The notes beneath the pieces are model-generated. The model was not told the DNA's origin. It did not search any database and was given only the letters and a program-made list of their open reading frames with translations. A stretch of 64,000 nt of DNA from Mesostigma viride (taxonomy: Eukaryota; Streptophyta; Mesostigmatophyceae; Mesostigmatales; Mesostigmataceae), in assembly GCA_009746045.1 (NCBI GenBank), contig RPFO01000213.1, positions 10,691,853-10,755,852 of the forward strand, written 5' to 3'. Positions 1 to 62,680 of this stretch are shown here, one piece after another. The position numbers and the translations under genes were made by a program. The first letter of the stretch is position 1. The number at the start of each line of letters is the position of its first letter.

Positions 1-2
1 TG

Positions 3-1787
3 TGCTTACCAGGGGTGAGGATATCCTCTGAGGAGCTAGCATTAGAAGGGCAGGGCCGCCTTCCCTTGCAGAGATATCGCTACTCCCAGGGTCTTAGTGT
101 GGCTGTAAGGGCTGTGAGGGGTCTAGAGGCAGAGGGTCCTGATACAAAGGAGCCCATTGCTGGGGACCTGCTGATCCTCCCTACTACGTTTGACCCACGT
201 GAGTTGGGTGTGCAGAGGTACCAGATCCCAGGAACGAGTCCTGTACCTTGGCGCAAGCTAGTGGAGATGATGCAAAGCCCCAAGATGGCTAAGGCATGGA
301 CTCTTGGCTTTGTTGCTTCTGGGCATGAGTGGATAGTTGCCAACTGTGCAGAGCCTGTGGATGTCCTCCCTGAGGATCACCAGCTGCTCAGATTGATGTT
401 TGTCCTCAAGCTCAAGGAGTAGATGGCGTGCAGGTGCCACATGTTAGACCAGTTGTGACTGAGTACCATGGCACTGGACAGTTAGCAGATGAGGAGCTTT
501 ACACACCAGGGATGCTGCATGATACATGGAGGATTTTGTTGTGCATTTATTTGTCTTTTCTGCAGAAGGGGATACCCTATAGCTCTGTGTTGGTAGATTT
601 CAAGAGGGCTTTTCTTAAGGGTGATCAGCAGGAAGCACAGGATACTTGGCGCACAATACCCCCTTTCTTTGTTAAGGTGCCTGCAGTGTGGAGGGCAGAG
701 CTGAAGACGAGGTATTTGAGGATTCTCAAAGGCGTGGAAGGCCTTAGATCGAGTCCCATCATCTGGAGGAAGAGCTTGGAGAAGTACCTCAGGTCTGTCT
801 GTGGTCTCTCAGTCTCTCCAGTTGATCCTTGTCTGTTTCAGGGTAGCTATGAGGGGCTGCCAGCGTTTGCCTCCCTGCATGGTGATGATCTGCATCTCCT
901 GGGCCATCCCACTTGGCAAGAGTTGACTCTGGCCAGGATCCAGAAACGGTTTGAACTGGGTAAGATCCAGTACATGGTTGAGAATGAGCCCATGGTGTTT
1001 TGTGGAATGCAGGCGACCTTGGTCCAAGCAGGGTACATGGTCCATCCAGCTGGAGGGTGGTAAGGATTATCCTCAGCAGATCATAGATGCCTTGCAGGAG
1101 CCCATCACCCAGGCCAGATGTGCAACAATACGAGGTATGTTGGCATGGCTGGCCAGCATTTGTGCTCCTGACCTGTTGGTACTGAGTCGGTTGACCGATT
1201 CCCAACTGGTTGAGGTGGGTGCTGAGAGAGTGGTAGAGGCTGTTCGCATGTCTCCCCCTCTCATGCTGGGTCCTTTGGATTTGTACAGGCCTTTTGACAT
1301 GATGCTCTATGTGGACAGTTCTATGGATAGTAGGAAGGTCACAGAGGTCAGGGGCCGTGCAGCAGCATTAATATCCCTGGTGCAGGAACAGTCCTCTCTG
1401 GTCTGCTGGTACAGTCGGTTGCAGAACAGGGTAACTCCCAGCAGTGACATTGCTGAGTGCAGGGCAATCTGTGAAGGGCTTCATACTGCTCTTTACTTGA
1501 GGGAGCTATTTTACCAGCTATGTCAAGTGGCTTCCTGTCGGTTGCAGATGCACACACTGGTAAGAACTGACAGCATGGGCATGGTGCAGTTTGTGCACAG
1601 GCAGCTGGCCAGGAGCAGGGACCTTGATTATTTGTTGCTCAAGGAAATGTCTTGCTTAGCTAACATTGAACATGTGGCTGGCGTGGACAACCCTGCAGAT
1701 GCTCTCACCAAGCTGGAGGAGAAGGCTGAGCTGCAATACCCTTTGCTTCGTGGGCTCATGGCCTCCAAGGGGGGAGGGCCAGAGTAG
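3..1787 (+). pseudogene. pol: Copia-like pol fragment: protease tail, RT and RNase H, frameshifted
   Basis: This is reverse transcriptase and RNase H of an RVT_2 (Copia) type polyprotein. It starts in the tail of the aspartic protease (SEELALEGQG) and runs through the RT: motif A is VDFKRAFLKGD, the conserved EGLRSSPIIWR block matches the usual YGLKQAPRAWY, and the active site is HGDD at 878-889. RNase H has its acidic residues in YVDSSMD, AECRAI, RTDSMG and DNPADALTK. Two single-base frameshifts break it, one near 420 (KLKE then stop) and one near 1025. Comparison with CD shows that nothing else is missing. The product would act in the virus-like particle, copying element RNA into cDNA. As it stands it is not translatable. 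Confidence 0.88.
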
Positions 1788-2062
1788 ACCAAACAGCCTT
1801 GCTCTAGGTGGGAGGCATCCCAGTGGGCTGGGCAGCCACGTGGTGGCTGACAGCAGGTCCTTCAGAGTTCAGACACACTCTGCTGGACAGGGGTCAGGGT
1901 GGAGTCACTCCCCTGGCTGAGAATTTCGCCTGGCTCTGTCATGGAGCTGCAGAAGAGTCTTAAGGACTTTGTAATGGGCCTTGGGTCTTCATGGAATGGA
2001 CCCTGCAAGGGCAGCCCAAGTGTTGGCTCTAACAGGTTGCTGTACATTTGTATATATTCTCT

Positions 2063-2854
2063 ATTTGCCCCGCAGCCTCTTGTTCCGGCCGGGCGGCCTT
2101 GTGGTAGCTGTGGGCAGCCGCTGGATCCCACGGGGACTCACTACCTTGCCTGCATGGGGGGCCAACAGAATCAGAATTGGTATTTGTATTTGCACACTGT
2201 CCTCCTGACGGTGGTGCTCGCCATGATTCGGTCGGTTTTCCCCCACGCGAACATCCGGTCCGAGGATGCGGATGGCGCTGCCTTCTATTCCCCCAACCAC
2301 CGGCCTGACATCGTGGTGCTGGACTTTGAGGGGGGTGGCCGGCATCTGCTTATTGACGTTTCGGTGGCGCGGCCCTTGGCTCTTAGCCACGTGGCTGGGG
2401 CCTCCCTCACGGCAGGTTACACGGCGGACCGGGCGGAGCGGGCCAAGCTCCTGGCCTACGGCGACGTCGGGCACCATCGTGTGGTGCCCTTTGTCCTGGA
2501 GGAGTTTGGGGCCATGGGGCCCCTGACCTCCGCCTTCTTCAAGGAGTGTTGCCGGCTCCGGGAGGATCGGCTGGACCTGGAGGGCCAGCGGGCCCCATGG
2601 TCGGCGCGGACCTGGACGTCATATTGGCGTCAGCGCTTGTCGGTGGCGCTGACTCGGGCCATGGCTGACATCATGCTCCGCCGTACGCGGGCTGATTTTG
2701 CGGTGCAGCAGGGCTATTAGGTTCCTCCCGTTAGGCGTTTCCATTGGTCTTATCGTAGTATAGAGCTTTGACATGGCTCTGTATATAGGTTTATAGCTGG
2801 GCGTTTGCTTTGGTTTGAGTGATTTCACTCTGCTGTAAGTAATTATATTTTTAA
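2063..2854 (+). mobile_element. Short LINE copy with restriction-like endonuclease domain
   Basis: This 0.8-kb insertion lies in the UTR of element A. The flanks repeat TATATATTCTCT (2051-2062 and 2855-2866), and the empty site in CD near 35125-35140 reads straight through, so this is a target-primed insertion with a duplication of 10-12 bp. The body ends in an AT-rich tail (GTAAGTAATTATATTTTTAA) without poly(A). A second copy with a different duplication lies inverted at 11104-11893. Both begin at the same internal point (CCCCGCAGCC). Confidence 0.85.
2074..2720 (+). CDS. C-terminal zinc-knuckle and restriction-like endonuclease domain of a non-LTR retrotransposon
   Basis: The reading frame is open from the 5' junction of the LINE copy. 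It begins with a Cys-Cys-His-Cys cluster (CGSCGQPLDPTGTHYLAC), followed by a PD-(D/E)xK-like core: RPDIVVLDFEG, then GRHLLIDVSVA. This is the layout of the endonuclease end of R2/CRE-type site-specific LINEs, whose role is to nick target DNA for reverse transcription. The first in-frame ATG (2154) lies after the zinc cluster, giving 188 residues, so a complete domain would need an upstream start. No reverse transcriptase is present. The encoded 188 residues are identical in the second copy (11241-11807), so the source was active recently. Assignment to a named clade would need a tree. Confidence 0.72.
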
Positions 2855-2997
2855 TATATATTCTCTGTAACCAACCTGTTGCATGCTAATAAAATCCCTG
2901 GTTGTGTGACCATGTTGGACATGGTTGCCAGGGGCCTCACTATGGGTTATACTCCTTTATAATAAAACATACTCTTGTTATTGTCATGTTTTGTTGT

Positions 2998-3070
2998 TTG
3001 TGATGCTCAGTTCCAGGAGCTGATCCAAACCTGGAGGATATGGGGTGGGGTTCGATTCCCCAGCTGACCT
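2998..3070 (+). other. tRNA-like segment (D-arm and T-arm) in element A 3' UTR
   Basis: A D-arm-like hairpin GCTC-AGTTCCAG-GAGC lies at 3005-3020. About 25 bases later comes a perfect T-arm, TGGGG-TTCGATT-CCCCA, at 3046-3062. The second matches the Pol III B box. No 5' acceptor strand pairs with the 3' side, so this is not a tRNA gene. The same T-arm recurs in the UTRs of CD, B and FH. Confidence 0.6.
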
Positions 3071-3526
3071 CAGCCTGGCATGTATGAATCCTGAGTGAGA
3101 CTCAGTGAGGACATGGGCTCCCCATGTGTTGGCTAACATTTGTCAGGGCTCTCTCAGTCTTTGGAAGGATTTAAAAGATAAAGGAGGCTCCGTGGCGGGC
3201 GCCATATGAACGGGCGCCTGTGATAACTGGATGACCAGGAACTCACAATAGTACGTTCATGGACTCCTCTATCCAAACTCCTCTGACTAAGTGAAGACCT
3301 AACTTTAATCTACACCAGGTTCCCAAAGAAAGGGTTGGGATGTCATGTGGGTCAGAGGGCAACCTTTGAACCAATGAGCAGGCCTAGCTAATATTTGGAG
3401 GCACCTCAGGTTCCAAAAGAAAAGGCAGGTCTGGTCTCTGGGAGGGATCAGATGTCTGAAGGCTTGTGGGGACAGTGGCTGATAGGTTCTCAGGCTGGTC
3501 CAAGCTCCAAAACAAGAAAGGGTTGG

Positions 3527-4180
3527 AGTTAGCATATTGGGGCACCAATGTGCTAGATGGATGCAGGTTGAGGAGACCTTTCCAACGCCGTGTCAACCGC
3601 CTAGAACAGACAAGGGACGAGAAAGTTATCAAGTCCCGAAGTACTGCCGACCGGTGGGCGAGGGCGGTGCACACTCAGGGCATAGTGGACAGGACACGTG
3701 GCAGGCCGTGCCTGCACAGGCTTAGCCTGGACTCTCACGTGACTGGGACACAGTGTACTGAGGGCTCAACGGTACTGTGGCTAGTAGAAGCCAGTAACCA
3801 GCCAGCAGGTCTGCAAGGATATAAGTCCTTGCAGGACTGTGGCAGGTCCTGTGCTGTCCTAGACACAGGATAGCCAGAGATTCCTGTATGCTGCCTGCAA
3901 CGAGGATGCAAGGCAGCGATACGAGGCTCTGGCAATGTAGCGTTGCCCAGCGTTGCTCATGACCGAGGAACAAGGATGGAACGAGGTTGCATATAGCTCG
4001 AGGCTCAACGAGGCAACGAGCGTCTTCACACACGAACCTTAGTCGTCACGACGAGTGGCGAGCCTATCGAGGGTCGTAGGCCTGGTGTGAGGATAAAGGT
4101 TGCTAGCCAGCAGCCTAGGGTCATTCCAGCCGGCAAGGACCAGGAGCTCACAAGCTCTGCTGACGAGTTGCTGCGCAAAT
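3527..4180 (+). repeat. 3' LTR of element A
   Basis: This 654-bp LTR starts AGTTAGCATATTGGGG directly after the purine tract and ends near GCGCAAAT. It is homologous over its length to the CD LTRs (33788-34452 and 50765-51429) and to the E 5' LTR (57012-57658). The end is the least certain boundary. Confidence 0.75.
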
Positions 4181-20485: not shown

Positions 20486-23400
20486 TTAGACAGCTTGCTG
20501 AGATGGGTCCATCAGAGACTGAAGAACCTTGTATTGCACTGCTGCCTTCTGCACTAGCTTGGTCAAAGCATCAGCAGGATTGTCAACCCCAGGGATATGC
20601 TCAATATTGGCCAAGGAGGACAACTCCTTAAGAAGGAGATAATCCAAGTCCCTACTTCTGGCCATCTGCCTGTGCACAAACTGCACCATCCCCATGGAGT
20701 CTGTTTTGAGAAGAGTGGTAACCTGAAGTGGCCAAGGAGTGTTAGAAGTCATCTGATGAAGCAACTCCTTCAGATAAAGGCTTGTGTGAATGCCTTCACA
20801 AATAGCCCTGCATTCTGCCACATCACTGCTGACAGCCACCCGTTTGTGCAGGGGACTAAACCAGCTCACCAAACTCCCCAGGCCTTCCTGTCTGAGCACA
20901 AAGAGCCCTGCAGCCCTGCCCCTGACCTTGGAGACCTGCCTGCTGTCCATTGAGCTATCCACATACAGCTCCATGCAAATGGGTTGTGATAAATCCACTG
21001 CAGACAACAGAATGCCAGATGAAGCCCTGACCTGATCAGCCACCTTGGCAGACCCTAGCTCCATCAGCATGTCATCAGGCAACCTGGCTATGACCATAAG
21101 GTCTGGCCTGGAAATGCCTGCCACCCAAGCAACCATGCCCCTCACCATGGGACACAGTGCCTGTGTGATGACTGGAGGAAGCTTGCTAATGAGGGTCTCT
21201 TGATAATCATTGCCCCCCACCAGCAGCATACGCCACTCCCCCCCCTTCTTCACCAGTGTGGCCTCCATGCCCACATTAACAGCAGAGGCTCATTCTCCAC
21301 CTGCCATTGCTCCCTACCCAGAGGAAACTTGGACTTAATGATGGAGACCAGCCACGACGTGGGAGCCAGCAGGTGCAGGTCGTCCCCGTGCAGCGAAGCA
21401 TACACTGGTAGGCCTTCCCATTGCCCCAGAAACAGACAGGGGTCTACAGGAGAGACCTTCAAGTTGCAATGCTCCTTCAGGAAACGGTTGAGAGTCTCCC
21501 TCCAGATTATTGGACTTGACCTCAGGCCCTCCAGGCCCTTGAGGATTTTAAGGAACTCAGTGTGAATGTCCCTTTTCCATACAGCAGGCACCCTGACATA
21601 GAAAGGCGTCTTGCCCTCCCACTTTTCCTGTGCCACATCTGCATCCCCCTCCAGAAATGCCCTCTTGAAGTCTACCACCACTGAGCCATAGTCCAAGCCC
21701 TTGTTGAGAAGGCCTAGAAATACACACAGCAGCAGCCTCCAAGTGTCATGCAGCATGCCAGGGGTATACAACTCCTCATCAGTGCACTCACCAGTACCCT
21801 TGAACTCATTCAGCACTGGCCTGATATGTGGTACCTTGACCCCGTCCACCTCCTTCATCTTGATGACAAACTTGAGCTTGAGTAGACGTCGTGCAGGAGG
21901 CAGGTCATTGACAGGTTCCACGCATTTCTTGGAGATCCAATCCCCCCCAGATTTAATCAGACCCAGTGTGACCTGGGGACACATAATGGGAGAGGACATG
22001 AGCTTCACCAGGCCTTGGTAGTTGATAGGGCTGTGTCCAGCAAGTGAGTGAGGACCAATGCCCAAACTGCTTGGATGACTAGCAGCTGGCAATATGAGGT
22101 CATCTACCAAGGGTTCCTGCCCCTGGCACACTTGCACACGCTTAACCGTCCTGGTTACTGCACGTGATAGGTGAGTGGTCCTGAAATTAATCAGTGGGAC
22201 CTGACCAGCCCCTTCCTTAGTCAGGAGAGAGGACGTGATCACTACCCCATCCTGGCATAGGAAATTCTGCCCCAGAAGAGCAGGTCCCTGATAGCCCTCC
22301 AAGACACAAAATGCAGTGTCCTGTCCAAGGATAGGAATAGATACCTCACCCAGTACCTTCACGTGTACCCCGCCACTGAAGTCAGACACAAACTGATAGC
22401 TGGGCTCAGTCATGCTGTACCCTGCTGCAGCTCTGGTCCCAATGATGGAAACCTGAGAATTAGTGTCTACCTCTAAGGCAGTGTCCAGCCCCAGATTGCC
22501 ATGCCACCTGAGCTTGGCTACCTTGGGCTGCTTCTTGGCCCTTTGCAGAGCCCCAATCAATCCAGCCAAACTTGTCCCCCTGGGCTTGGTTAGAGCCTTG
22601 GGCTTGACAGTTGACTCCCCAGCTGTTGACCTTGCAGCCTGTTCAACAGGTACCTCTGCAACCTGGCCAGGGCTGACAGATTCCCCTGCAACAGATGTGG
22701 TCGTTGCGTCAGTGATGTCACTTGGGACCTGAAAATCCTGCAGATCCTGTGAGCCTTGTGCCTGACTGCCCTCATTCATCAGGTTAGGCTTGACATATGA
22801 CCAACTCAGCCGGTGCACATGCTTTGGTTCGTCCTCCATGCTGACCAAGCATGCGTGGCTAGCTTCATCAACCTGGGTAACCACCCCAGGACTCCAGCTA
22901 CCACGTTTGCCATACAGGCTCGGTTCCTTCCAAGCTAATACCCTCTGACCCACTGTTGGCTCCAGCATCTTCCAACCCCGGTCCTTCTCCCTCAGCTTGG
23001 CAAAGGTGACAGGTGCAGCATGTTTCCAGCCCTCCAGCACATGTGGGGGGCACAGGCCATGATATAGGCCCATTGGGCTGACAGCAACTCCATCATAGTA
23101 GAAATTGACCCTGCTGTTCAGCTGCTGCTCCACGTTCCTCAACCATGCACTCCTGACAAGTGCAAGTGCAGACAAGGGTACCCAGTCTTCAGAGATGATC
23201 AATTTCTTGACCTCCTGGATTGCCCTCTCTATAGCACCCTGCTGCCAATGAGCCTCCCTAGGTGTAACCAGCAACTCAGGAAGGGTGGGATCACCCTTGA
23301 GATGCTGAAACTGCATGTCCACCTGGATCCTTGTGGTAGGAAACTTGGCTCTTACATTCTGCAGGGCAGCCAGCAAGTACCTGTTCTTCATAGAAGGTAA

Positions 23401-24116
23401 ATGCTATAGCACCTTGTACTTTGTGTACCTGTCCACGCACACCAACAGTTGCATGCCCCTGATGTGTTGGATATCACACTGCAGATCACCAATGCTCTGA
23501 GGTAGAGCTTTGGCATGTGATTTCCTGGGCTTGTTGGAGGACAACTGGCACTTACACCGTGAGGCAGCTTGCTGACACGCCTTGAGAAGGGGTGCCCTGC
23601 CCATACGGAAGGCAAAGTTGTTTGACAGAGAAGTGGCATGCCCAAACATGTTGTGGATTCGGGCACCCAACTCCTGGTACACGGAGGAAGCAGTCCCTGG
23701 CACAGTCAGGACTGTGCTGTCAGGTTGTCCAGCATCACCATGCTGACTTCCATCCTGTTCTGACTCAGAGCTTGAGTCACCCTGCTCATGCCCAACACCT
23801 GGACCGCCAGCAGGGACCACATGCACACCACCAGAGGCCTTCACACCCCTCTGTGGTTGTACATTGGTTTCTCTCATAATGAGAGGTCCACCCTCGTGCC
23901 CAGCACGAGGATGCATGGGGTCAGACATTCTTACAGCTGCACCAGCTGTCAAGGACGTCTTCATAGGAACCTGTACCTCTCCAGGTGACCTGGGGCCATC
24001 CTGAACCTGGAGATCACCCTCTTGTTGCCCAGATATAAAATCTGCATTGGAGCACCTGGCCCCCCCCTTGGGTGAATTCAGGTGTGTAGGGGTTGCCTCA
24101 GACAGTCATTGCTCCT
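20486..24116 (-). pseudogene. pol: FH pol: integrase, protease, RT, RNase H in that order
   Basis: Reads from about 24105 down. The integrase zinc region (IHNMFGH ... CKC, about 23590-23680) is followed by catalytic CDIQHI, D at 23317-23319 (QVDMQFQ) and E at about 23227-23229 (GAIERAI), then an SH3-like tail (KRGSWSPGVV). The aspartic protease core comes next: VDTNSQVSI (D at 22465-22467) and ALLGQNFL. RT has VDFKRAFLEGD and HGDD (21379-21390). RNase H has YVDSSMD, AECRAI, KTDSMG and DNPADALTK. Breaks: an in-frame TAG at 23404-23406 and a one-base shift near 21270. The protease lies after the integrase, not before it as in ordinary Copia elements. Confidence 0.88.
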
Positions 24117-24693
24117 TGTTGTCTTCTTGTTGACTGCCCTTTGAAGGCTGGCCTGCCTGGGACTTGTTGTTGTTTTTGTTGTTGTTATTCTTGTTGCTGC
24201 CCTGGCCCTGGGTCTTCTTGAAGCTGGGACACTCCTTCTTGATGTGCCCCCACCCCTTGCACAGGTAGCACTGGATCTTTGACTTGCCCTGGCCTCCTCC
24301 CCCGTTGTCAGGCGCGTTACCCTGCCTGGGCTTGCCACCCACCCTCCTGAACACCGACTTGGCATGTGATTGCCCGTCAGGGTCGGGTGAATGGTTGGCC
24401 TTCCGCTTGTTGTGGTTGCCCCCACGCCTTCCTTGGCTTCTGTCAGCCTCAGACGCCTTGGAGCCCCCCTGGGCACGCCCACCTGCGTGGGTAGCCTTCA
24501 CAGCTGGCACTCCACCCTCAAACAGCTCCTCTGCCTCGAGTGCTTGTTTGATTATGACCTTGTAGGCCTTGAGGGTAGAGTGTGGGGCACACATGACCTT
24601 TAAAGAGCCACGTGTAGCCTTGTCCAGCCCAGAAACCTTAAGCCAGTTTGTCAGGGCTATGTTGTCAGCAACATTGAAGCCATGAGCCCTGCC
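24106..24693 (-). CDS. gag: FH gag, C-terminal half with CCHC zinc knuckle
   Basis: Continues the gag frame from 33167 across the G insertion. It contains TRGSLKVM, a basic linker rich in Gly, Arg and Lys, one zinc knuckle CYLCKGWGHIKKEC (CX2CX4HX4C) and an Asn/Lys-rich tail. It ends at TGA (24106-24108) followed by CTG, and the same frame stays open into the integrase. Gag packages element RNA into virus-like particles. The stop may be a programmed readthrough site or a mutation; E has a stop at a similar place, CD has none. Confidence 0.75.
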   Translation of the reverse strand, partial: GRAHGFNVADNIALTNWLKVSGLDKATRGSLKVMCAPHSTLKAYKVIIKQALEAEELFEGGVPAVKATHAGGRAQGGSKASEADRSQGRRGGNHNKRKANHSPDPDGQSHAKSVFRRVGGKPRQGNAPDNGGGGQGKSKIQCYLCKGWGHIKKECPSFKKTQGQGSNKNNNNKNNNKSQAGQPSKGSQQEDNKEQ

Positions 24694-24698
24694 CTCCT

Positions 24699-25156
24699 AG
24701 TTGGATGGAGACTAGCGACGACGAACAACTGCTGAAGCTGAAAGCGAATGATGATTGTATTAGCAATAATACAATGAGAGAGCAATGGAAGCTGAGGGCT
24801 CAGAATGGAACGTCTGGGCAAACTCGGGTGCTGCGGCACTCCCCAGTGCTACGCCTATATGCCTATGGCGGTGCTACCTGCAGCACCGACCAGTGGACAA
24901 CTGTACACTGCAATGCCATGCGACCACGTCACTAGCAACCAGCTAAGACTCGGCCCGTCAGGCCCGGCTACACCGGACCTGGCGGGTCGAGCTAGCACCT
25001 AGGAACAGTCTGGCACTAACCGCACATCGGTCCACATGACACCTCAGTACCGTACACCCTGCCGTACTGTACTGAGGTGTCCCGCTCAGCCGCGGTAGGC
25101 AATACGCGGCGCGCAGGCCGGAAATCCGTGTGTCAGCCTAAGCATCTCATCTAACT
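24699..25156 (-). repeat. 3' LTR of G
   Basis: 458 bp; on the plus strand AGTTGGATG ... CATCTAACT, an imperfect inverted terminal repeat. On its right (upstream on the minus strand) AAAGGAAAACATAATGGG is the likely polypurine tract. Confidence 0.88.
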
Positions 25157-26216: not shown

Positions 26217-28686
26217 CTAGGCGTCCCCCCTATGGGGCAGGGTTGCCTGCTTGCCATAGGGGTTCATCAAGTGGTACAACAGCTGATATTGTTCAGCTGC
26301 CTGCTGAGGCACTTTAGTGAGTGCATCAGCAGCGTTGTGTTTGTCCTCCACGTGACGGGTGGACTCCCAGTAGGTGGACTCCTGTTTCAGGACCACCCAG
26401 TCAAGATCAGTGTGCACAGCATAGGGGTTAGCAAGGAAACTGAGGACTGACTGACTGTCAGTGAGCAAGTGTGCCACCACCCCAGCATTGCTGCCTGCTT
26501 GCATCTGCAACCAAACCAGCACATGATTCAAGTACCTGGCATGAAGCACTGCTGACACCACTGCCCTGCACTCAGCAGCATTGCTGCTGACAGCCTTGCG
26601 TCTATGCAACCGGCTGTACCATGAAATGAGAGACAAGGGTGCATCATCATTCTGCACAAAATACAAGCCTGACTCCCTTGCCTGCAACTTGGTAATCTGC
26701 CTGGACTCCATGGAACTATCCATCATAGCTTGGATGTGAATGGTTTTGTGGAGATCCAAGGAGTGCAAGATAAGGGGAGGGCCTTCCTGGAGAGTTTTGG
26801 TGATGGCTTTGTGACCTACTTGCATCAAGACATCATCATCAACTCTGCTAACCACAGCCAGGTGAGGTGCACACGTTGAGCACAACCACCCCAGCTTGCC
26901 TCTAATGGTAGGACAGGCTCCAGGTTTGATTTTTGTTTGCAAAACCTCCAAGCAGCTGTGCATGTAATCATTGGGAGAGTAGAGTGCACACACCCACTGG
27001 TTTTGATGCTGCTGGAGTTGTAACATTGTGCCACAAAATTTTATGGCAGTGGTGCCCAGCTCTACTTGCTTGCCAATCTCAAAATGCTGTGACACTTGTT
27101 GAATAAAATCATCCACAGCACGCCTTGGCCCAGCAATCAGCTGATCATCCCCATGCCACACAAAGGTGAGAATGCCATGAGGGTGTGGGACCACAAAGAA
27201 GCAAGGGTCTATGTCATCATATCTAGCCCCTAGCTTTTCAAACACAGCCTGAGCTGACATCCTGAAAATGCGAGGAGCTGATTGCAGCCCTTCAACACCT
27301 ATGTTAGCTTTCAGGTACTGCTGAGGGATGTGTTTTGCCCAAACTCTGGGAGTGGAGACTACATACACCTGACCATGCCACACTTGTTGTGCTATCTCAG
27401 GTGAGCCTTTCAGGAAAGCCCTTTTAATGTCTGTAGCCTTACATACATAGTCATCCCCATCATTGAGATGACCCACAAAGACAGACAGCAAGATTTTTAG
27501 GGATGTTTGCTGAATGCCTGGCGTGTACAACTCTGCCTCTGTCAGATCAGTGGTGCCCTTGAACTCTGTCACACAAGGTCTAGCATGAAAATGACTGACC
27601 CATCTGCTGCTGGCTTATGTTTACACACAAACTTCAGGCGCAAGTGCTTGCACCCTGCAGGCTTTTTGTCAATAGGTGTGACAGGTGGAGTATGAGAAGG
27701 ACTAAGAGGATCTGGCACTACCCATTCTTCCCTGGCCTTGTTAAAGGCCTCCACCCATTTTAGGAATCCTATGTGTGTGCGACAGTCTTGCTCTATCTGT
27801 TCATAAGAAAGAGGAGACATTTTAGCCACATCATGCTTGCCCAATCCAAATGAGTTGGGATGAAGTTTTTGGTTGTGAACCAAGTCTGCCACACAGGGTT
27901 CTTGCCCTGGGGCATACTTGGGTGTAGCAAATTTTACAGAAGCAATGTTGGTGTTAAGAAGTTTTTCAAGAGAAATTTTGAAATGATTCAGATCAACACC
28001 ACCCATGTCCTGGATGGATAGTCTATCACTGGAGATATGACACCAGGGTAACAGAGAAAAGGATCCCCCAACAAAGCATTCCCTTTATAACCTTCCAATA
28101 CCTGAAAAGGAGTGGGGATACCGAGTATAGTCAACATGACCTGACCTAATACCTTGAGGGATGACTGCCCTGAGAAATCAGCCACATGGTGCCAGGGTGA
28201 AGGTTCCAAAGGCAAATGGGGCACAGCCAGGGCACTGATAATGCTGACCTGGGCTTGTGTGTCCACTGCAACCATAAATGGGCTATTGTCATTCTGCCCA
28301 ACCTTCCCCACCTTAGCTGATCCTGCAGCAGTTTGAGCTTTGGCTCTATGAGCTGCTTGTAAAATGCGAACAGCGTCTGCTAGGCTGCGTTTGGAAGGTG
28401 CAGCTAGTGGCTGAGCTATGTTCACACTTGAAGAGGTGATAGGTTGCTGATCACCTGTTTTGCCAATGTGACCCTCTGCTGCAGGGGGCCAAGCCTGCAG
28501 TGACTGCCTGCAATCATCAAGGGTGACCTGGGTGTCACAGTGGGTGTGGCTCTCACACTCACCAGTGGGTGTTCCAAACAACCACTCACTGGGCAACGCT
28601 GGGATGCCAGGCAACTGTACAGGGCTGTCGGCCAACAGCTCTTCCTCCTCTGCCACGTCTGACACAGTTGGAAAATACAATTTCAT
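26217..28686 (-). pseudogene. pol: G pol part 2: protease, RT, RNase H
   Basis: Begins at an ATG (28686) that overlaps the stop of the integrase frame in ATGA. The protease core is AVDTQAQVSII (about 28235-28268) with ALLGDPFL. A frameshift near 28000 and another near 27570 lead into RT: ELYTPGI, TDIKRAFLKG, active site WHGDDQ (HGDD at 27144-27155). RNase H is intact with MMDSSMES, AECRAV, LTDSQS and NAADALTK. RT and RNase H form one open frame of about 450 residues (26217-27572). The order protease after integrase is the same as in FH and CD. Confidence 0.85.
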
Positions 28687-29978
28687 CCTGTGAGGTGAAC
28701 ACCTGTGAATTTTCCCGTGTCATTGTGTTTAACTAACACTGTCCTGCCAGTGGTGTTAAACTTTAGGATGGTGGCTGGCCCATGCCAGGTACCCACCTTG
28801 CCTAGTCCCGACTCCTTGTAGAATAGGACCTGATCCCCTTCTCTGAAGGTGGGACGTGGATGCTTTGCATCCTTGACAGCTAACCTGCTAGCTGTCTGTG
28901 CTCGCTGTGCGTTGTATAGGGCTAGTACCTCAGGTGGATAAATGCCTGCATGCAATCCATCTGGTGTAATGACCACCCCTTGTGGGGTTTTCATGAGTGG
29001 CCTCCTGTTGAGGACTTGGCACAACCTGGTGGACCACAGAGCTCTGTCAGCATATGACCCACTGTCAGCCAGCAGATTGCCATCTTCTTTGGCTACAAGG
29101 GTTTTAATGGACCTGATGGCCCTTTCAATAATGCCTTGCCTCTCATGATCTTCTAGCCCAGCCAGATCAATAGCCTCACACCCTGGTTCATTGGCAAGAC
29201 ACGTGAACTGCTGATCCAGTAACAATGCCTCCACAGGGTAGTACCTGGCCTGAGCAATCAAGAGAGCCCTGAGCAACTGTGTCTTGTCCATTCCAGGTAA
29301 TGGTTCAATGGTTGTGTACCTTGACCATGCATCTTTAAGTGCCAAGTAAGATTGTCCTTTGATATGAAAGACATCTCCTACCACCCTGCCCTTGCTCTTA
29401 GGTGGGGTAGCTACATGCCACTTAGGGGGTTTGGGTGCATTGAACTGACAATGCTGGCAGTGGGATCTGACCACCTGGCATGCACGTCTGAGTGCTGCCC
29501 CCCCTATTGCTGCTGCCACCACCTCTGCACTCACTTCATGCCCATAAAGGAAATGCAACTGCAAAGCAAGCTCCTGAAAACTGATATGAGCATCCTCTGC
29601 TGGGGACACTCTGCACACCTTGGGAACCATAGATGTGAAGGTTGGTTTAGAGACATAATCTTCTGAAACCAGCTGTAGCACCTTTCCAGAACTGCTCACT
29701 GCTCTGACAGTGGGGCATGCAGATGAAAGAGGTGAAGCAGGCACACTCAAGCCAGCATGAGAGGGAGACTCACACTTCTTGCCGTAAGGAGGCCGCTTGC
29801 AGTCCTTGGGGTCACCGTGGGGCGGCCCGTGGCACTTGTGGCACAGGACGTCCAAATGCCCCAGCTCGTCCACGTTCTTGCGGCAGGTGGGCCGCAGGTG
29901 GTACTTCATGCCACAGCGGGTGCACCGCTGAGAAGACTTGTCCTCCTTGTCCTGCTTCTTGTTGTTGTTGTTGTTGTT

Positions 29979-30044
<66 letters not shown>

Positions 30045-30341
30045 GCTGGAGCTGCCCCCCTTGGAGGGAGACTGCCCCTTACCCTTGCCCTTGCCCCAGC
30101 CCCTGCCCTTGCCCTTGCCCTTGCCCTTGCCCTTGCCCTTAAACATTTGTCCCAGCAGGGACTTGACTTCTGCCATAGTGACAGGTCTCTTGCTCCTGTC
30201 TTCCCTCTCCCTATCCTCCTCCTCCCTCTCTTCCCCCCTGACCCTCTTTACAGAGGTGCCCATGGCCCCCTGGCTAAGGGGAGCCAAGGCCAGCTTGATA
30301 TAATCCAATGCCTCCTTCATGTCCTCCCAGTACTTTGCCAT
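28683..30341 (-). CDS. G gag C-terminus and integrase
   Basis: A 552-residue frame. It begins with a gag segment, then a basic GKGKGK tract, a long poly-Asn run, and two zinc knuckles: CTRCGMKYHLRPTC and CHKCHGPPHGDPKDC. The integrase follows: zinc region LHFLYGH ... CQHCQF, catalytic DVFHIKG, LLDQQF and IIERAIRSI, and a C-terminal SH3-like part (LGKVGTWHGPATI). The second aspartate and the glutamate are separated by only 29 residues. It ends in TGA within ATGA, overlapping the protease frame. The N-terminal boundary with gag is set by a frameshift near 30340. Confidence 0.82.
29959..30044. repeat. (GTT)n microsatellite encoding poly-Asn
   Basis: About 28 repeats of GTT on +, read as AAC (Asn) codons in the G gag frame on -. 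One unit is interrupted by ATT. It is likely to be length-variable. Confidence 0.95.
30100..30141. repeat. (CCCTTG)n hexanucleotide repeat
   Basis: Seven units, read on - as alternating Gly-Lys (GKGKGK), the basic tract of G gag. Confidence 0.9.
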
Positions 30342-31130
30342 TCCTGTGCAAGCATAGCGTAGGTGTTTTTGTCAAGTTTGAGTTTCTCAAGGAAGAACGC
30401 AGCAAGAACTTGTGATCTAGCTGCTGGACATCAGGACGTGCTTTGATGGCTAGCTCATATTTCTTTGTCTCAGCCACATAGTCCACTGATGTGACCCTGT
30501 ATTCCTCTACCCACCTGAATGCCCCATATATGTCCACAGATGAGGGGGTGGAGAGGAGGTCAGTTAGCTCCTTCATGAAAGCCTCCCAAACTGCCCTAGC
30601 CTGCGTGTCCTGCCACTTGGGATACCTACGCTGGAAGACAAGAATGAGATTCTGAATCTGAGAGGAGGACTGATGGTAAAATCCCCCTGCATGAGAGATC
30701 CAAACCAATTCTTGACATTCAGTTCCTCCCTAGCCAGCTGCAGAGAGAGAAGTGCATGATTCCCCTGCTCCCTAGTATACCCCTCAGGCAGCCCCCTGAC
30801 ATTAATCCTATCCACAGGACGGTTTTCATTGTAAGTGGGCAACCTAGAGGGGGATGCAGGGGGAGAGGGAGAAGATGGTGTTGCTGCTGCAGCATTCACA
30901 GGAGAGACATGCTGAGAGGGAAGTGCTACTTGAGTGAGCTGAGCAGGATGGGCAAACATGGGCTGTGTAGGAGGGTTAGACAACATAGGGGTGGGCTGGG
31001 TGGGGGTGTGAGTGTGTGTCACTTCCCGCCTCCTGCTGCGGGCCTCCTCCCAATCATGGAAGGTGGGAGAGAGGGACACTTCATCGTCAGTAGGGTTAGT
31101 AAGATCATGATGCAGCCAGGTAGGCAGCCA
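30274..31130 (-). pseudogene. gag: G gag N-terminal part, frameshifted
   Basis: Two overlapping frames (about 30573-31130 and 30274-30708) together give a gag-like protein. A Pro/Thr/Ser-rich start (THTHTPTQPTP, SSPSPPASPS) is followed by a helical region (FQRRYPKWQDTQARAVWEAF, MKELTDLLSTPSS, AETKKYELAIKARP) that resembles Copia gag helices in character. Shifts near 30690 and 30340 separate the pieces. No ATG opens the first frame; the overlapping upstream frame is ORF1. Confidence 0.6.
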
Positions 31131-33787: not shown

Positions 33788-34452
33788 ATTTAGCGACTCC
33801 GGCCAGGCAGCTGCCGTGAGCTCCTGGTCCTTGTCGCGACTGTTAGGACCTAGGTCGCGTAGCTTGCAACCTTTGCTCCTCGCCCCAGGTAACGCTCTCG
33901 CTGGCTTGCTCACTCCAAGTGACAACCACGGTGCGTCGGCAAAGAACTGCCTTGACCTGCCTTAGGCCATAGCTTTATGTTACCTCATTTCCATCGTGCC
34001 CTAAGGCATCGCCCATCGGCTTCGCACAGTGCACCGCTACCTTGCCAGAGCTCTTCTTACCGCTACCTTGCATCCTTGCTGCAGGCAGCGTTAAGGATCT
34101 CTGACATTCCGCGACTAGGTATCACCAGTTCCTGTCACAGCTCTGCACGGATGCGCATCCTTGCAGAGCCCGCGACTGGCCTACTGGTCTCTACTTAGTC
34201 GCCGGACCGTTGCGCCCTCAGCCTCCATGGACCTGAGTCACGTGCTGGTCCAGGCTAAGCCTGTGCAGGCCCTGCCTGCCACGTGTCCTGTCCACTGCGG
34301 CCTCGGTGTGCACTGCCGCCGCCGCCGGTCGGCAGGACTTCGGGACCTGATAACTCTCACGTCCCTTGTCTGTTTCAGGCAGTCAGCACGGCGTTAGAAA
34401 GGTCTCCTCATCCTGCATCCAACTAGCACATTGGTGCCCCAATATGCTAACT
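33788..34452 (-). repeat. 3' LTR of CD
   Basis: On the minus strand AGTTAGCATATTGGGG ... GTCGCTAAAT. Nearly identical to 50765-51429. Confidence 0.93.
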
Positions 34453-35347: not shown

Positions 35348-37409
35348 CTACCCAGCCCACCGGGACACATCCCACCTCAGAGCAAGGCGTTGGTCTCCGT
35401 AGCACCCCACCATGGGGCCCATGAGCCCACGGAGCAGAGGGTACTGCTGCACGGCCTTCTCCTCAAGCTTGGTGAGAGCATCTGCAGGGTTATCCAGGCC
35501 AGCCACATGTTCAATGTCAGCTAAGCAGGACATTTCCTTGAGCAACAGATAATCAAGGTCCCTGCTTCTGGCCAGCTGTCTGTGCACGAACTGCACCATG
35601 CCCATGCTGTCAGTTTTCACCAGTGTGTGCATCTGCAACCGACAGGAAGCTACCTTACATAGCTGGTAGAAAAGCTCCCTCAAGTAAAGGGCTGTGTGCA
35701 GCCCCTCACAGATTGCCCTGCACTCAGCAATGTCACTGCTGGGGGTTACCCTATTCTGCAACCGACTGTACCAGCAGACCAGAGAGGACTGTTCCTGCAC
35801 CAGGGTGATTAATGCTGCTGCCCGCCCCCTGACCTCTGTGACCTTCCTACTATCCATAGAACTGTCCACATAGAGAACCATGTCAAAGGGCCTGTACAAA
35901 TCCAAAGGACCCAAGATGAGAGGTGGAGACAATGATCCTCACAGATTGCATCACACTCTCAGCACCCACCTCGACCAGCTGGAAATCTGTCAACCGACTC
36001 AAGACCAGCAGGTCAGGCGCACAAATGCTAGCCAACCATGCCAACATACCGCGTATGGAAGCACACCTTGGCTGGGTAATGGGCTCCCGCAGGGCATCAA
36101 GGATCTGCTGAGGATAATTGTTACCACCCTCCAGCCTGATGACCCAAGAACCCTGTTGTTTAATCAGTGTCGCCTGCATCCCACAAAACACCATGGGCTC
36201 ATCCTCGACCATGTGCTGGATCTTACCCAGCTCAAACCGTTTCTGGATCCTGGACAAAGTCTTCTCAATCCAGGAGGGAGGACCCATGAGATGCATATCA
36301 TCACCATGTAGGGAGGCAAATACAGGCAGGCCACCATCGCTAGCCTGGAACAAGCAAGGATCAACTGGGGAAACAGTCAAGCCACAGACAGTTTTGAGAA
36401 ACTTCTCTAGGCTCTTCCTCCAGATGATGGGACTGGACCTAAGACCCTCAACACCCTTGAGAATCCTTAGGTACCTTGCCTTGATTTCTGCCCTCCACAC
36501 AGCAGGCACACTGACAAAGAAAGGTGGTATCGTTCGCCATGTCTCCCTATAGCCTCTTCCTGGTCACCCTTGAGAAAAGCCCTCTTGAAATCTATCAAAG
36601 CAGAGCCATAGGCAATGCCTTTGACCAGGAAGGATAAGAAAACACACAACAACATTCTCCACGTGTCATGCAGCATCCCTGGTGTATAGAGCTCCTCATC
36701 TGCTAACTGTCCAGTGCCATGGTACTCGGTTACAACTGGTCTGACATGTGGCACCTCGACACAATCTACCTGTTTGAGCTTGAGGACAAACATCAATCTG
36801 AGCAGCTGGCCGGTGATCCTCTGGGAGGACATCTACAGGCTCTGCACAGTTGGCAATCATCCACTCATGCCCAGAAGCAATGAAGCCAAGAGTCCATGCC
36901 TTAGCCATCTTGGGGCTTTGCATCATCTCCACTAGCTTGTGCCAAGGTACAGGACTCGTTCCAGGGATCTGGTACCTCTGCACCCCCAACTGGCGTGGGT
37001 CAAACGTAGTTGGGATGATCAGCAGGTCCTGAGCAATGGGCTCCTTAGAATCAGGCCCCTCCACTGCAACACCCTTCACCGCCCTTACAGCCACACTAAG
37101 TCCCTGGGAGTAGCGATATCTCTGGAGGGGTAAACTACCCTGCCCTTCTAGTGCCAATTCCTCAGAGGTTATCGTCACCCCCGGCTGGCATAAGAAATTC
37201 TGCCCCAGTATGGCTGGACCCTCATAGCCCTCTACCACACAGAACACAGTGGGCACCCCCAGAATAGGCACACTCACCTCCCCCAGAACTTTCATGGACA
37301 CATTCCCCGAGAAATCAGACACGGCTGGGCAACCGGCTACAGACATCCGCAACCCTGCAGCATCCTCAGCCCTCAGAATGGACACCTGCGAGTTGGTATC
37401 CACCTCTTA
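35348..37409 (-). pseudogene. pol: CD pol part 2: protease, RT, RNase H, broken
   Basis: Starts right after an in-frame TAA (37407-37409). The protease has VDTNSQVSIL and AILGQNFL. The linker and RT follow with IDFKRAFLKGD, EGLRSSPIIW and HGDD at 36297-36308. RNase H has YVDSSMD, AECRAI, KTDSMG and DNPADALTK. Breaks relative to A: the TAA, a 4-base insertion near 36830, one-base shifts near 36525 and near 35930. The LTRs of this copy are almost identical, so the breaks were inherited, arose very recently, or are assembly errors. Confidence 0.87.
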
Positions 37410-38643
37410 TGTTGCTGCCCAGCATGACCCCCACCCCGTGAGCTTAGATACCTTGGGATCACGCTTGCCGCTCATCAGTGCCCGGATGACGTCCGCCATG
37501 AGGAGCCCCTTGGGCTTTGGTCCAGCCCTGGCCCCCACTGGCCTTGTGACAGTTGCTGCAGCAGATTCCAGCTCACCCTCGTCCATCCAGGACAGACCAT
37601 CATCCAAGCATGGAGGGTTAGCATCTACTGCCTGGCTCTCCTCCTGAGCCTCAACCTCCAAGGGAGGCTCAGGGCCGTCTACAGGCCAGATTGCACATGG
37701 CCTCTTCTCTCGGATGTGAGCCCAGGACAACCTGTACACGCGCCTAGGATCCTTGTCCAAGGCTACCAGACAAGAATGGTTGGCCTCATCCAACTGGGTT
37801 ACCAGCCCATCCTGCCACTTGCCACGCTTGCCTGGTATTGATGGCTCCTTCCACATCCTGACCCCCATTCCCACATGGGGCCTCAGCATTTTCCAGCCCT
37901 TGTCCTTGCGCCTCAGCCGAGCAAACACTCTATCTGCCTTTCTCAGGCAGGCACCCACTACCTCTGTGGTAAACAACCCAAACTGCGCTGCTAAGGGAGA
38001 GACGGCCACACCATCATAGTAATAGTTTACCCTGTGGTTAAGCTGTTCCTCAATCCCCTTGCACCAGGCTGCCTTTTCCAAAGCAGATGCTACCACTGGC
38101 ACAGTCTTTGCTGCTAGCACCACTGTCTTTACCTCACGGATAGATCTCTCTACAGCCCCCTGCTGCCCATGACTCTCTCTAGGGACCACTACCAGCTTAC
38201 ACGGAAGCTGATCAGCATGCTTTCTCAAGCAGTCAAACTGCAAGTCAGCTTGCACCAAGGTGTACACCCCAAAGCATGGCAACAAAGACTGGAGACCCAA
38301 CAACAAGTGATGCTCATCCATGCCAGGCAGGATGGTCAACAGCCTATACCGGCTGAACCTATCCACCCCCACCAACAGATACAAACCACGAATGTGCTGT
38401 ATATCTACTTGGATATCTCCCCGCCCTCTAGCAGGCTCTCTAGCGTGGGACCGTGGTGGGTGAATCTGATTCTCCTGACAGACACAGTTCTCAGCAGCTG
38501 CAGTGCAGGCCTCCAACAGAGGCTGCTTACCTAGCTTCCAAGCAAACATTTCTGCCTGTTTAGAGTGCCCAAATACATGGTGTAGAGTATGCCCAGCGGC
38601 TGCATAGCTCAACCCCCTAGCAGTCTCACTGCATAAGGAGGAA
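37410..38643 (-). CDS. CD integrase
   Basis: Continues the gag frame after element M. Zinc region HTLHHVFGH ... NCVC; catalytic core QVDIQHIRG and VGVDRFSRY, then QADLQFD and GQQGAVERSI, with 31 residues between the second D and the E; C-terminal tail with KRGKWQDGLVTQLDEANHS and VYRLSWAHI. It inserts element cDNA into the genome. The protein runs on in frame to the TAA before the protease, so in an intact relative integrase and protease would form one polyprotein. Confidence 0.85.
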
Positions 38644-38648
38644 CTAGG

Positions 38649-39276
38649 TGTCAAAAATGTCATGCTGTGACCATGGGAGGTTGTTGATATTACATTAATA
38701 ATGATGACCTCATTTACGACTTTGTCATGATGGAAATATTTTGTCAACCACCATGGCTGAAAGGTGCCATTTTCTAGAACAGTGGTGGTCAGAGAAGATG
38801 TCTGGCGTGTAGCCCAGCCACCACCTATATGGCTGGTCGGCAGGACCACAACATAATTAACTTAACATGACAGCTAGGCAACACTTAACCAGTGCTATCT
38901 AGATGCTGCCTGCTGGCAAATCATGGTTGTACCATGGCAGACAGAATTAGGTACGCCTAGCTGACGGTCCAGGTGCCACGAATTGAATTATTGGCGCCTG
39001 TCCTATATGGGCCATGCGCCACATGACACGACATGGATTGTACTACAGTGCCGTATAGTGACCAGGCACATATATATGAAAAGACTCATAACTTTCTACC
39101 TAGTGGCACTAGAGCTCAGATCAAGGTGATTCTAGTGGCAAAGTTGTAGCCAAACATGAGCTCTACGCAGTCATACTGGCGTTGTAGGTTGTTCTGACTT
39201 AACTACGGACTACCCGAACTTTATCTAGATTAGTAAGTGCTAGACTTGTCAGGCATATTGGGGCATATTCCTGACA
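38649..39276 (-). repeat. 3' LTR of M
   Basis: 628 bp, uninterrupted reference for the other LTR. On the minus strand it begins TGTCAGGAATATGCCCCAAT, itself a near-palindrome with the following 14 bases. Confidence 0.88.
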
Positions 39277-59637: not shown

Positions 59638-61006
59638 ATGCCTCGTGGCAAACCGGGCGGGAGACGGCGACAAGGGCGAGATGGAGGCACCGGCTGGGGC
59701 AAGCCAGGAGCCTCGGCAGGACAAGGAGCAACTGGTGGGGGAGGCAATCCCTGCCAGCGACGGCGATGGGGGAAAGCGACCAGGCAGCAAGAGGCGGCAC
59801 GAAGACTCGGTGGAGGAGGCGCGCAAGGTGCGGGCGACAGGGCCATCTGATGCAATAACGGTGGCGAATGGGCAACCAGCCGTGGAGAAGCGTAAGAGGG
59901 ACACCTCCGCTGACGGCAATGGTAAGAGGCCTCATGTGGATGTGCTCTCCCCTAGCTGTGCCTGCTGGCCCAAGTGGCGTTGTTGCTGTGACACCCACTA
60001 TGGTGGAGCCGGTGAAGGCGCTGCCAGGGTCGAGGCCTCACATGAGTGCAGTCACTCTTATGAATGGACAAAAGCCTCTTAACCCACCACTAGCACAGGA
60101 GGCTCTAGACAAGTGGCTAGAGGACATGGAGCTGGTTGTACTCTCCGTGGACCCCACTGTCAACCTATAGTGCAAGTGTTTCACTCGTCCACGTGCAACA
60201 GGGACTCATCAGAGCGTGTCAGGGAAAAGGCTAGGACTGGGGTCAAGGATAAGCTAACCTGGGCACAGTTCCTGGATGGTTTGAGGGAGGAGTTCTCTGA
60301 CAAGGTTCTCAACCTCACCAACTACTATAAACATCAGTATGACACCTTTGAGATAGTGGGTCCTGTGGCAGAGGAATGGGCTAGGCTCAACCGTATCAGG
60401 GACAAGGGGGCCAAGTATGGCTTCCTGGTCACAGATAGGGCCTTCTTGGCAGACTATTTCCTGGACCGTATGGGTTTGAGTGTGGATGGGAGGAACAGTG
60501 CCCGCATGTTTCTTAACCAGACTGATGGCTCCTTGCGTGCTCTGGAGCTTGTAATCCTCAGCATAAGGAAGCCAGATCCTGCCTGCAAGGCTATCCAGTC
60601 CCATGGCAGCAATGCCACCTCCGCTGTGCAGGGCCAAGGAGATGTCCCCGGGTACCCAGCCCGTGATGGGGCAAGGCCCAACAAGCGTAAGCGCTTCAGG
60701 CGCCAGAGGCAGGGGGCTCAGGGTGGCAAGGGTGCAGGTTCCCAAGGAGGGATTGGGAGCCAGCAAGCTGGTGGTCAGCAGGGTAAGGGTGGCCAAGGGC
60801 AAGGCAAGGGCCAAGCTCAAGGCAACCAGGGCAAGCAGGGTGGGCAGTCTCAGGGAGGCCAGGGGAAGCCTGGCAAGGGTGGGGCTGGGTCTGGGAAGAA
60901 GGGTGGAGCATGCTTTGTGTGTGGCAAGGAAGGTCACTGGCGTCGTGAGTGTCCTGACAAGAAGGCCAAGCCTGCTGGGGCAGGGGGCCAGTCTGGGCAG
61001 CCGTGA
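59638..61006 (+). pseudogene. gag: E gag, frameshifted, ending in UGA-CUAG
   Basis: ATG at 59638 (MPRGKPGG), but the gag-like frame is the one from about 59645 (VGEAIP, RHEDSVEEARK), then another (RPHMSAVTLMNGQKPL, DKWLEDMELV), then 60170-61006. The last holds the capsid region (ERVREKARTGVKDKLTWAQF, DYFLDRMGLS), a Gln/Gly basic linker and the zinc knuckle CFVCGKEGHWRREC. It ends in TGA followed by CTAG, where CD has a CGA codon and reads on. Three or more frameshifts relative to CD. Confidence 0.75.
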
Positions 61007-62159
61007 CTAGCTAAACCATCCCCTGTAAATAGTCAATCACCCCTTCTTGGGGAAGGTGTGCTGGATGTACATAAGGACGGGGGTGTGCCCCTTGTGCAGC
61101 ACCAAGGGTGTAAAGATGTTGTTCTTCCACTGGATTGCAATAACAATGCTGCAGCTGAATTCCCTATGCCTCATGCAGGTGGTGGGTCTCCAGCAGGTGC
61201 TGGCCTGGAGGGCCAAGGAACCTTGCTGGAAGGGCCTGGAGCGGTCCAGGGTGCAGGGCCTGACTTGGGGCGTCAGGATGGCCTTCAGGGAAGCCCTGGA
61301 ACATCAGGAGTGGATCATGTGTCCCCACACACGGTTCAGACGTCTCGCCAGGTCAGTACTGAAAGGGTGCTGAGCTATGCTGAGGCTGGCCATAGGTTGC
61401 ATCACATGTTTGGTCATTCTGGGCAGGCAGCAATGTTTGCTTGGAGGCTAGGTAGGGAGCCTTTGTGGGAGGCTTGCCAGGCTGCTGCTGAGCAGAGTCA
61501 GTGCCACTTGTGACATCTGCCTTAGAGAGGGCAGCCTGGTGTAAGGGGATAGAAGAGCAGCTGAACCACAGGGTTAACTATTACTTTGATGGGGTGGCTG
61601 TCTCTCCCCTGGCCCTGCAGTATAGCTTACTACCTGAGAACGTGGTGCAGGCCAGTCTTAGGAAGGCAGACAGGTTGTTTGCCCAGCTGAGACGTAAGGA
61701 CAAGAACTGGAATGTGCTGAGGCCTCAGGTGGGGCTGAAGGTCAGGATGTGGAAGGAACCATCTATTCCAGGCAAGCGGGGGAAGTGGCAGGATGGGGTT
61801 GTCACTCGTGTGGAGGAAGCTAACAGATCTTGCCTGGTGGCTTTGGAAAAGGATCCAAGGCACGTGTACAGGTTGTCCTGGGCTCATGTCAAGGAAAGAA
61901 GGCCACATGCAATCTGGCCTGCAGACGGGCCGGGCCCTCCCAGCTGGGTTGAGGAGCCAAGCCAGAGCCAGGCAGCAGCAGCTAACAATCCTCTGGTGGT
62001 GGATGATGGTCTGTCCCTGCTGGAAGATGACGAGCAGGAGGAGGCTGCTGAAGCAACTGTCACAAGGCCAGAGGGGACGGGGCAGCCACCTAAGGCCCGG
62101 GGGCCTCTCATGGCGGACGTCATCCGAGCACTCATGCGCAGCAAACATGATCCCAAGGT
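61007..62159 (+). pseudogene. E integrase remnant with core deletion
   Basis: The frame after the gag stop matches CD: VNSQSP, VLPLDC and the zinc region HRLHHMFGH ... SQCHL. At about 61512 roughly 0.36 kb is missing relative to CD, including all catalytic residues. The match resumes at ALERAAWCKGIEEQLNHRVN and continues through the SH3-like tail (KRGKWQDGVV) to MADVIRALMRSKHDPKV, where the element is cut. Confidence 0.82.
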
Positions 62160-62680
62160 AGTTATGGCACTCGTGCAATGGATGCGAACGTGTGTTGGAT
62201 TATGCAATGGCTGGCATAATATCAACCCATGCAAGCTTGCCAAGCTGGATTGCATGGGCACGTAGGTTAGGGTAACCTAGCTGTCCTGCACTAGTGCTAA
62301 CCAATGAGATGCTGGCTCCGTCCAGCTAGATCTACTCCAGCTAGGACTGATACGATGCCCACAGGCACAGACTGCCTAACAGCACTACGTGGATGGTCCT
62401 GGACCTCCCCTAGGACCTCCGTACAGGACTAGCACTGCAACCACCTTGTGGTCTGCATCACAGCTCATGAACCCTACCACGTGAATACCCACGTGCGTGT
62501 GCCCTACATATCTCAGTGCTAATATCTAGCACCCACGTGCCCAATATGGCACGTGCGGATCTAAACCCTAGTAGAGATATGTCCAGTGTACTACACCACC
62601 GTCCATGTCCGTATCCCACTTGGGAGACGGGGACAACGCCACGTGTACTGATAGTCTAGGCCTGAAGTCCTAGAATAACT
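62160..62680 (-). repeat. LTR of a further Copia-like element
   Basis: 521 bp with inverted ends AGTTAT ... ATAACT. To its right the minus strand reads AAAGAAAAGTAATAATGGG, a polypurine tract like that of G, so this is the 3' LTR of a minus-strand element whose body is displaced by element P at 62712. Confidence 0.68.

Follow-up and report, generated by a model that had tools for sequence, protein, structure and literature searches.

The stretch of DNA considered here, referred to throughout as the window, is 64,000 nucleotides long (G000:C1:10691853-10755852) and belongs to a 440-Mb, 2,243-contig assembly of the streptophyte alga Mesostigma viride, which is also the genome that was searched. 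It holds three copies of long terminal repeat (LTR) retrotransposons, designated FH, CD and G, in which the parts of pol stand in an unaccustomed order. The textbook orders are gag-protease (PR)-integrase (IN)-reverse transcriptase (RT)-RNase H (RH) in Copia and gag-PR-RT-RH-IN in Gypsy; in FH, CD and G, all on the minus strand, a retropepsin-like domain instead follows integrase and precedes RT.

The end of the FH gag, with one CCHC zinc knuckle (24106..24696; zf-CCHC E=0.0014, below cut-off), closes with TGA at 24106-24108, and CTG follows in the pol frame. A spacer and the integrase, with its zinc-binding H/C motif, catalytic core and C-terminal tail, take up 22700..24105 (lower boundary approximate); Pfam finds nothing there, and the assignment comes from alignment with P0001, a database protein of 1,214 residues (tblastn places P0001 154-958 at 23670-21274). 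The retropepsin-like domain (22183..22575; model and fold search, HIV-1 protease at E=0.0053) contains EVDTNSQVSI, its Asp codon at 22465-22467, and LLGQNFL at 22258-22278. RT, with the motif HGDD, lies at 21364..21909 (RVT_2 E=1.3e-5, 25.4 bits against a Pfam cut-off of 31.6 bits), and the end of RT together with RNase H, in a frame that differs from the rest of pol, at 20486..21289 (60% identical to P0001 958-1214; no Pfam match). In copy G the gag end with its zinc knuckles and the integrase share a single frame (28683..30371; rve E=0.011), followed by the retropepsin-like domain (27991..28389; gag-asp_proteas E=0.1) with AVDTQAQVSI, Asp at 28261-28263, and then LLGDPFL, and by RT and RNase H (26217..27614; RVT_2 E=7.1e-7). 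CD repeats the arrangement: integrase (37407..38861; rve E=0.018), the domain (37116..37406) with EVDTNSQVSI running downward from 37406 and ILGQNFL after it, frame-broken RT and RNase H (35348..36563; RVT_2 E=8.9e-4, RVT_3 E=0.0096), and part of a 3' LTR (34031..34452). Both rve matches fall short of the Pfam cut-off, and so do all three RVT_2 matches. An initial annotation, made from the sequence alone, had pointed to the motifs of a retropepsin-like core in these three copies, and all of them are where it put them.

Decay has touched all three window copies. In FH an in-frame stop interrupts integrase (23404-23406), and the frame changes near 21250-21289; in CD a stop stands directly ahead of EVDTN (37407-37409); G is split across frames. 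That leaves room for artefact, and it is relatives with open frames elsewhere in the genome that settle the order. The odd-order set consists of the window copies and of four genome families, A, C, G and S, represented by loci L034 (A, of which loci L001-L030 were also fetched), L042, L041 and L036; family counts are places scored in the genome search. The pol of each family reads IN, PR-like, RT, RH, with the RNase H of G taken from the window copy. The same succession appears, weakly, in P0001: rve (214-265, E=0.15), gag-asp_proteas (557-628, E=0.086) and RVT_2 (751-923, E=0.014). Among the odd-order elements, L041 of family G takes RVT_2 over its cut-off (36.6 bits), while the matches in FH, CD, C and P0001 fall short of it. 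The order gag-IN-PR-RT-RH claimed by the initial annotation is thus borne out in the open frames of four families and in P0001; a check of it by domain models gives matches in the expected succession, most of the RVT_2, rve and gag-asp_proteas matches being below the Pfam cut-offs.

These families are real, conserved, numerous and young, with many near-identical copies. Family A shows its 1,196-residue frame in all 38 scored places (about 63% identical to P0001). Paired LTRs are found in A, C and S, and 5-bp target duplications in A and C: the LTRs of L034 are about 700 bp long and 98% alike, with the ends AGTTAACG and CGTTAACT and the target duplication GTGCG, and those of L042, which has a 1,197-residue pol frame, are 97.7% alike, with the duplication GTACC. 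The run of bases after the 5' LTR of family A (L034:1227-1300) does not start with TGG, so that the primer binding site corresponds to no obvious tRNA 3' end. Family C is 81% identical to CD, which as query scored 88 places, and the CD LTR fragment is about 79% like the family's LTR. Family G scored 150 places at 95-100%, with stops in two of them; the single 1,787-residue frame of L041 runs from gag and its knuckles through integrase and the DTQ domain into RT, and an insertion then cuts the copy ahead of RNase H. For S, searched with P0004 (a database protein labelled Mesvir1 by EukProt), 65/65 scored places match at about 100%; the two 178-bp LTRs of L036 are identical, and its gag frame, which carries three CCHC knuckles, overlaps a pol frame of 1,344 residues. 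A tandem array of units of about 40 bp starts directly behind the 3' LTR of this copy (L036:6548-7498). In the S integrase (L036:1763-5797) Asp replaces the last Glu of the D-D-E triad (HQAQGKVDR), even though at least 65 near-identical S copies exist.

The order is also old within the lineage, as the initial annotation supposed, because the members that share it are strongly diverged, with RT identities of just 39% between A and S and 35% between A and G. Over such distances the retropepsin-like domain keeps pace with the integrase core, at 61% and 64% identity, respectively, between A and P0001, and at 34-36% and 36% when A is set against S or G. The stretch before integrase is much less conserved in the same comparisons (33% and 12%), a pattern that speaks against a chance resemblance.

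What is this domain? It is predicted to have the retropepsin/Ddi1 fold: in each of the fold searches, all 50 among the matches listed are retropepsins or Ddi1. (Copia proteases are absent from the fold matches listed, which excludes nothing.) The sequence carries an ILG, LLG or LIG motif in 6/6 odd-order rows; Asp and Thr are invariant in the aligned rows, and the flap and ILG landmarks are no less conserved than the integrase core. The active site reads DTN in FH, CD, A, C and P0001 (IDTNA in 30/30 fetched A loci), DTQ in G and DTK in S. The initial annotation's retropepsin-like core therefore has a predicted structure to go with it; its label "protease" fares less well, the fold agreeing and the Gly of the D[TS]G signature, whose absence it overlooked, being replaced by Asn, Gln or Lys. 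With that Gly absent, "protease" stays a prediction.

The same genome supplies a control in the form of canonical Copia elements. At L037, L038 and L040, Pol_BBD, gag_pre-integrs, rve, SH3_retrovirus and RVT_2 follow one another in textbook order, and canonical RVT_2, which reaches 177.9 bits at best, turns up in 150 scored places, as does Pol_BBD. Many of the Pol_BBD places lie in frames of about 300-750 residues; the one that was read (L039:1093-2799) holds gag and protease, with no integrase or RT in frame, and such short frames are possibly non-autonomous elements. In a tree of RT, seven odd rows separate from three canonical Copia rows with 100/100 support; the canonical Copia of this genome is the sole comparison, with no outside reference, and the program warns of long branches. 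RVT_1 was never reported in the Pfam scans of odd-order elements, which gave RVT_2 or nothing. Among solved structures a search for sequence relatives of the odd-order integrase and RT returned one meaningless match (E=0.29) for integrase and none for RT. The RT motif, usually YxDD, is HGDD in FH, G, CD, L034, L036, L041 and L042, and HVDD in the canonical L037, L038 and L040.

We think that these are LTR retrotransposons with a Copia-like RT and the order gag-IN-retropepsin-like-RT-RNase H, in which the domain in the middle is a functional protease that was acquired from outside Copia and stands in for a lost Copia protease; we put the probability of this reading at roughly 0.6. Four other explanations have to be weighed against it. 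In a window full of nested repeats where every copy is decayed, it would be natural to suspect that nesting, decay or misassembly has produced the order artificially. Its presence in unbroken frames of four families, at many places, and in an independent database protein puts this practically out of the question, and a nested or chimeric origin is ruled out by the open frames. It is also highly unlikely that the true protease hides in gag or in the spacer between gag and integrase, the domain behind integrase being an extra. In G only 81 residues separate the last knuckle Cys from the first integrase His, and a retropepsin is some 90-100 residues long. More room exists in A and C, where 140 and 138 residues of pol precede the first integrase His (plus a 17-residue gag tail in C); here A and P0001 agree at 33%, against 61% in the PR-like domain. 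The spacers are low in complexity and poorly conserved, and the A/C type was modelled without secondary structure, a weak result in that the model was built on three rows. Pfam scans ahead of integrase found knuckles and no protease, and the scanned S and A gag frames lack a D[ST]x[AS] motif. Something is left to this alternative by the fact that gag was checked by Pfam and motif patterns only and the spacer by so shallow a model; on balance the initial annotation's view that no second protease lies between gag and integrase agrees with the G spacer, the negative scans and the structureless model.

Two further explanations concern the domain itself. One is that it is the old Copia protease, moved behind integrase (for example by template switching) and diverged beyond recognition. 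A single event would suffice, and the same clan AA fold would be expected. The ILG-like motif of 6/6 odd rows contrasts with LLS in 4/4 canonical Copia protease rows (a passage in PMC2642776 gives ILS as usual for Copia proteases where almost all others have ILG); the domain resembles retroviral and gag-asp_proteas models and has no match to Pol_BBD; and the canonical rows behave differently in the search of solved retropepsins, matching none up to E=10. Aligned with hhalign, the odd-order and canonical Copia protease profiles give a probability of 0.1% and no alignment, but both are shallow (effective number of sequences about 2), and the missing match is accordingly weak evidence. We consider a moved Copia protease distinctly unlikely. 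The ILG motif in place of LLS and the failure to align with the genome's own Copia proteases make it likely that the domain was captured and did not simply change place; judging from these sequences, an ILG-type retropepsin probably came in and the Copia protease was lost. The position that the initial annotation gave the retropepsin-like core, between IN and RT, stands; that the core is not of the Copia protease type, and so points to capture plus loss, escaped it. The other explanation is that the domain is a dead retropepsin fold with a different role, for example in Pol dimerisation or as a support for RT, any cutting being done by a host enzyme or unneeded. DTN, DTQ or DTK in all families read speaks for it. 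An invariant Asp and Thr, and flap and ILG landmarks conserved like the integrase core, speak against it; moreover, numerous canonical Copia copies of this genome also do without the Gly (DSA in L037, L039 and L040; DTG in L038), so the Gly position is not fixed here. A dead fold is unlikely in our estimate, though to be taken seriously, and that the domain would still cut despite DTN, DTQ or DTK is the least secure part of the reading we prefer.

Several observations weigh against capture of a working protease, and against parts of the assignment on which it builds. DTG or DSG occurs in no family read. The fold model was built on five rows, with a mean predicted local distance difference test score of 65.9 and three of five models poor; Foldseek returns nothing at E<=0.001; the match of FH to HIV-1 protease spans only half of the domain, without the active site; and Pfam gag-asp_proteas matches in 3/5 rows, at best with E=0.019, short of its cut-off. 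Selection on the domain within A is uninformative, there being 0 synonymous and 0 nonsynonymous variants. No donor was found: hhalign against the genome's Gypsy protease (three near-identical rows) is collinear and not significant (probability 0.35%). Pfam sees no RT in the pol frames of A and S, and in S no family whatever; both owe the identification of their RT and RNase H to alignment with FH, G and P0001, and that of their integrase to relatives. A target duplication was looked for at L036, the S copy, and not seen.

How would such an element work? In A, C and FH, gag and pol are in one frame, separated by UGA and then CUN (CTG in FH, CTA in the further window member described below, CTT in 30/30 A loci and in L042, 2459-2464), a junction that resembles known readthrough contexts. 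Gag-Pol would be made by readthrough of this stop in A, C and FH, by frameshifting at the overlapping junction in S, and as a single frame in G, and would be packed into particles. There the middle domain would pair up, then free itself by cutting or stay joined to RT, and would cleave Gag and Pol; integrase would then insert the DNA copy.

Other features of the window belong to the same population. A C family copy on the plus strand is cut by the window start (1..4180; RT 374-1063, RNase H 927-1787, 3' LTR 3527-4180, the last recognised by LTR match); it is 99.9% identical to L042 over 2,065 bp. A further member, also on the plus strand (60083..62265), has gag with CCHC (zf-CCHC E=2.4e-6), the junction TGA CTA at 61004-61009 and pieces of integrase (tblastn P0001 314-549 to 61492-62187); no protease-like domain was seen in it. 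A repeat of about 390 bp lies behind the FH gag end (24764-25155) and again beyond G (32768-33158), 97-100% identical. At 15969-19022 a 1,017-residue frame matches Phage_integrase, a tyrosine recombinase (E=5.4e-7); L042 sits inside a relative of this element, and the corresponding empty site in the window is near 17816-17821.

Likenesses to known systems run in several directions. With Ty1/Copia (Pseudoviridae) the odd-order elements share LTRs (A, C, S), the 5-bp target duplication (A, C), CCHC gag, integrase before RT and RNase H in last place; in G the RT is also of RVT_2 type by the Pfam cut-off, with weaker matches in FH, CD, C and P0001 and none in the A and S frames. Unlike Ty1/Copia, they have the protease behind integrase rather than between gag and integrase, of ILG type rather than LLS/Pol_BBD type, and give no gag_pre-integrs or SH3_retrovirus match; the genome's canonical Copia differs also in its HVDD. 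With Ty3/Gypsy (Metaviridae) they share an ILG-type protease directly ahead of RT and RNase H, but their integrase precedes the protease instead of ending pol, and their RT matches RVT_2 or no Pfam family, never RVT_1. In spumaviruses, which are vertebrate viruses, the protease likewise stands directly before RT, possibly joined to it; unlike the algal elements, they have integrase at the end of pol and a retroviral RT. With clan AA retropepsins and Ddi1 the domain shares the predicted fold, the D-T start, the flap and the ILG motif, and differs in the Asn, Gln or Lys that takes the place of the D[ST]G Gly. In Gmr1 the protease directly follows gag, giving gag-PR-IN-RT, and RT is of Gypsy type; neither holds for the odd-order elements. 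Gmr1, presented in PMC2774666 as Gypsy elements with a Copia-like integrase position, is alike in its non-standard pol order and in integrase preceding RT.

The initial annotation knew of no description of gag-IN-PR-RT-RH, and a literature search aimed at the order turned up none in titles or the starts of abstracts, nor did searches on Mesostigma, dinoflagellates or the active site, most subscription journals lying outside their coverage. As far as word-based search reaches, no relative elsewhere came up: three protein searches, two of which scored about 8,000 top word-sharing candidates, gave four proteins, two of them labelled Mesvir1; viral contigs gave no pattern match, and seven pattern matches in prokaryote contigs were none of them confirmed. 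The main texts of two Mesostigma genome papers, which report LTR elements, use neither "Copia" nor "Gypsy". A survey of 80 green-plant species, in its account of the sorting, divided 13,863 elements between the two orders and removed unexpected orders as likely mispredictions (PMC6317226).

The order of domains in pol is the basis on which LTR retrotransposons are sorted into Copia and Gypsy, and it is likely that this gene order has a third form, known here from one species. A more ambitious proposal is correspondingly more tentative, and we give it somewhat short of even odds: that gag-IN-PR-RT-RH is a third architecture of superfamily-level rank, in which an ILG-type retropepsin, set between integrase and RT and working with a Gly-less DT[NQK] site, took over from the original protease of a Copia-like lineage. 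An abundant lineage of this kind, living beside ordinary Copia, would show that filters on domain order can conceal genuine elements and that the protease module is open to replacement and to a change of position; the question whether a retropepsin functions without its active-site Gly also becomes testable.
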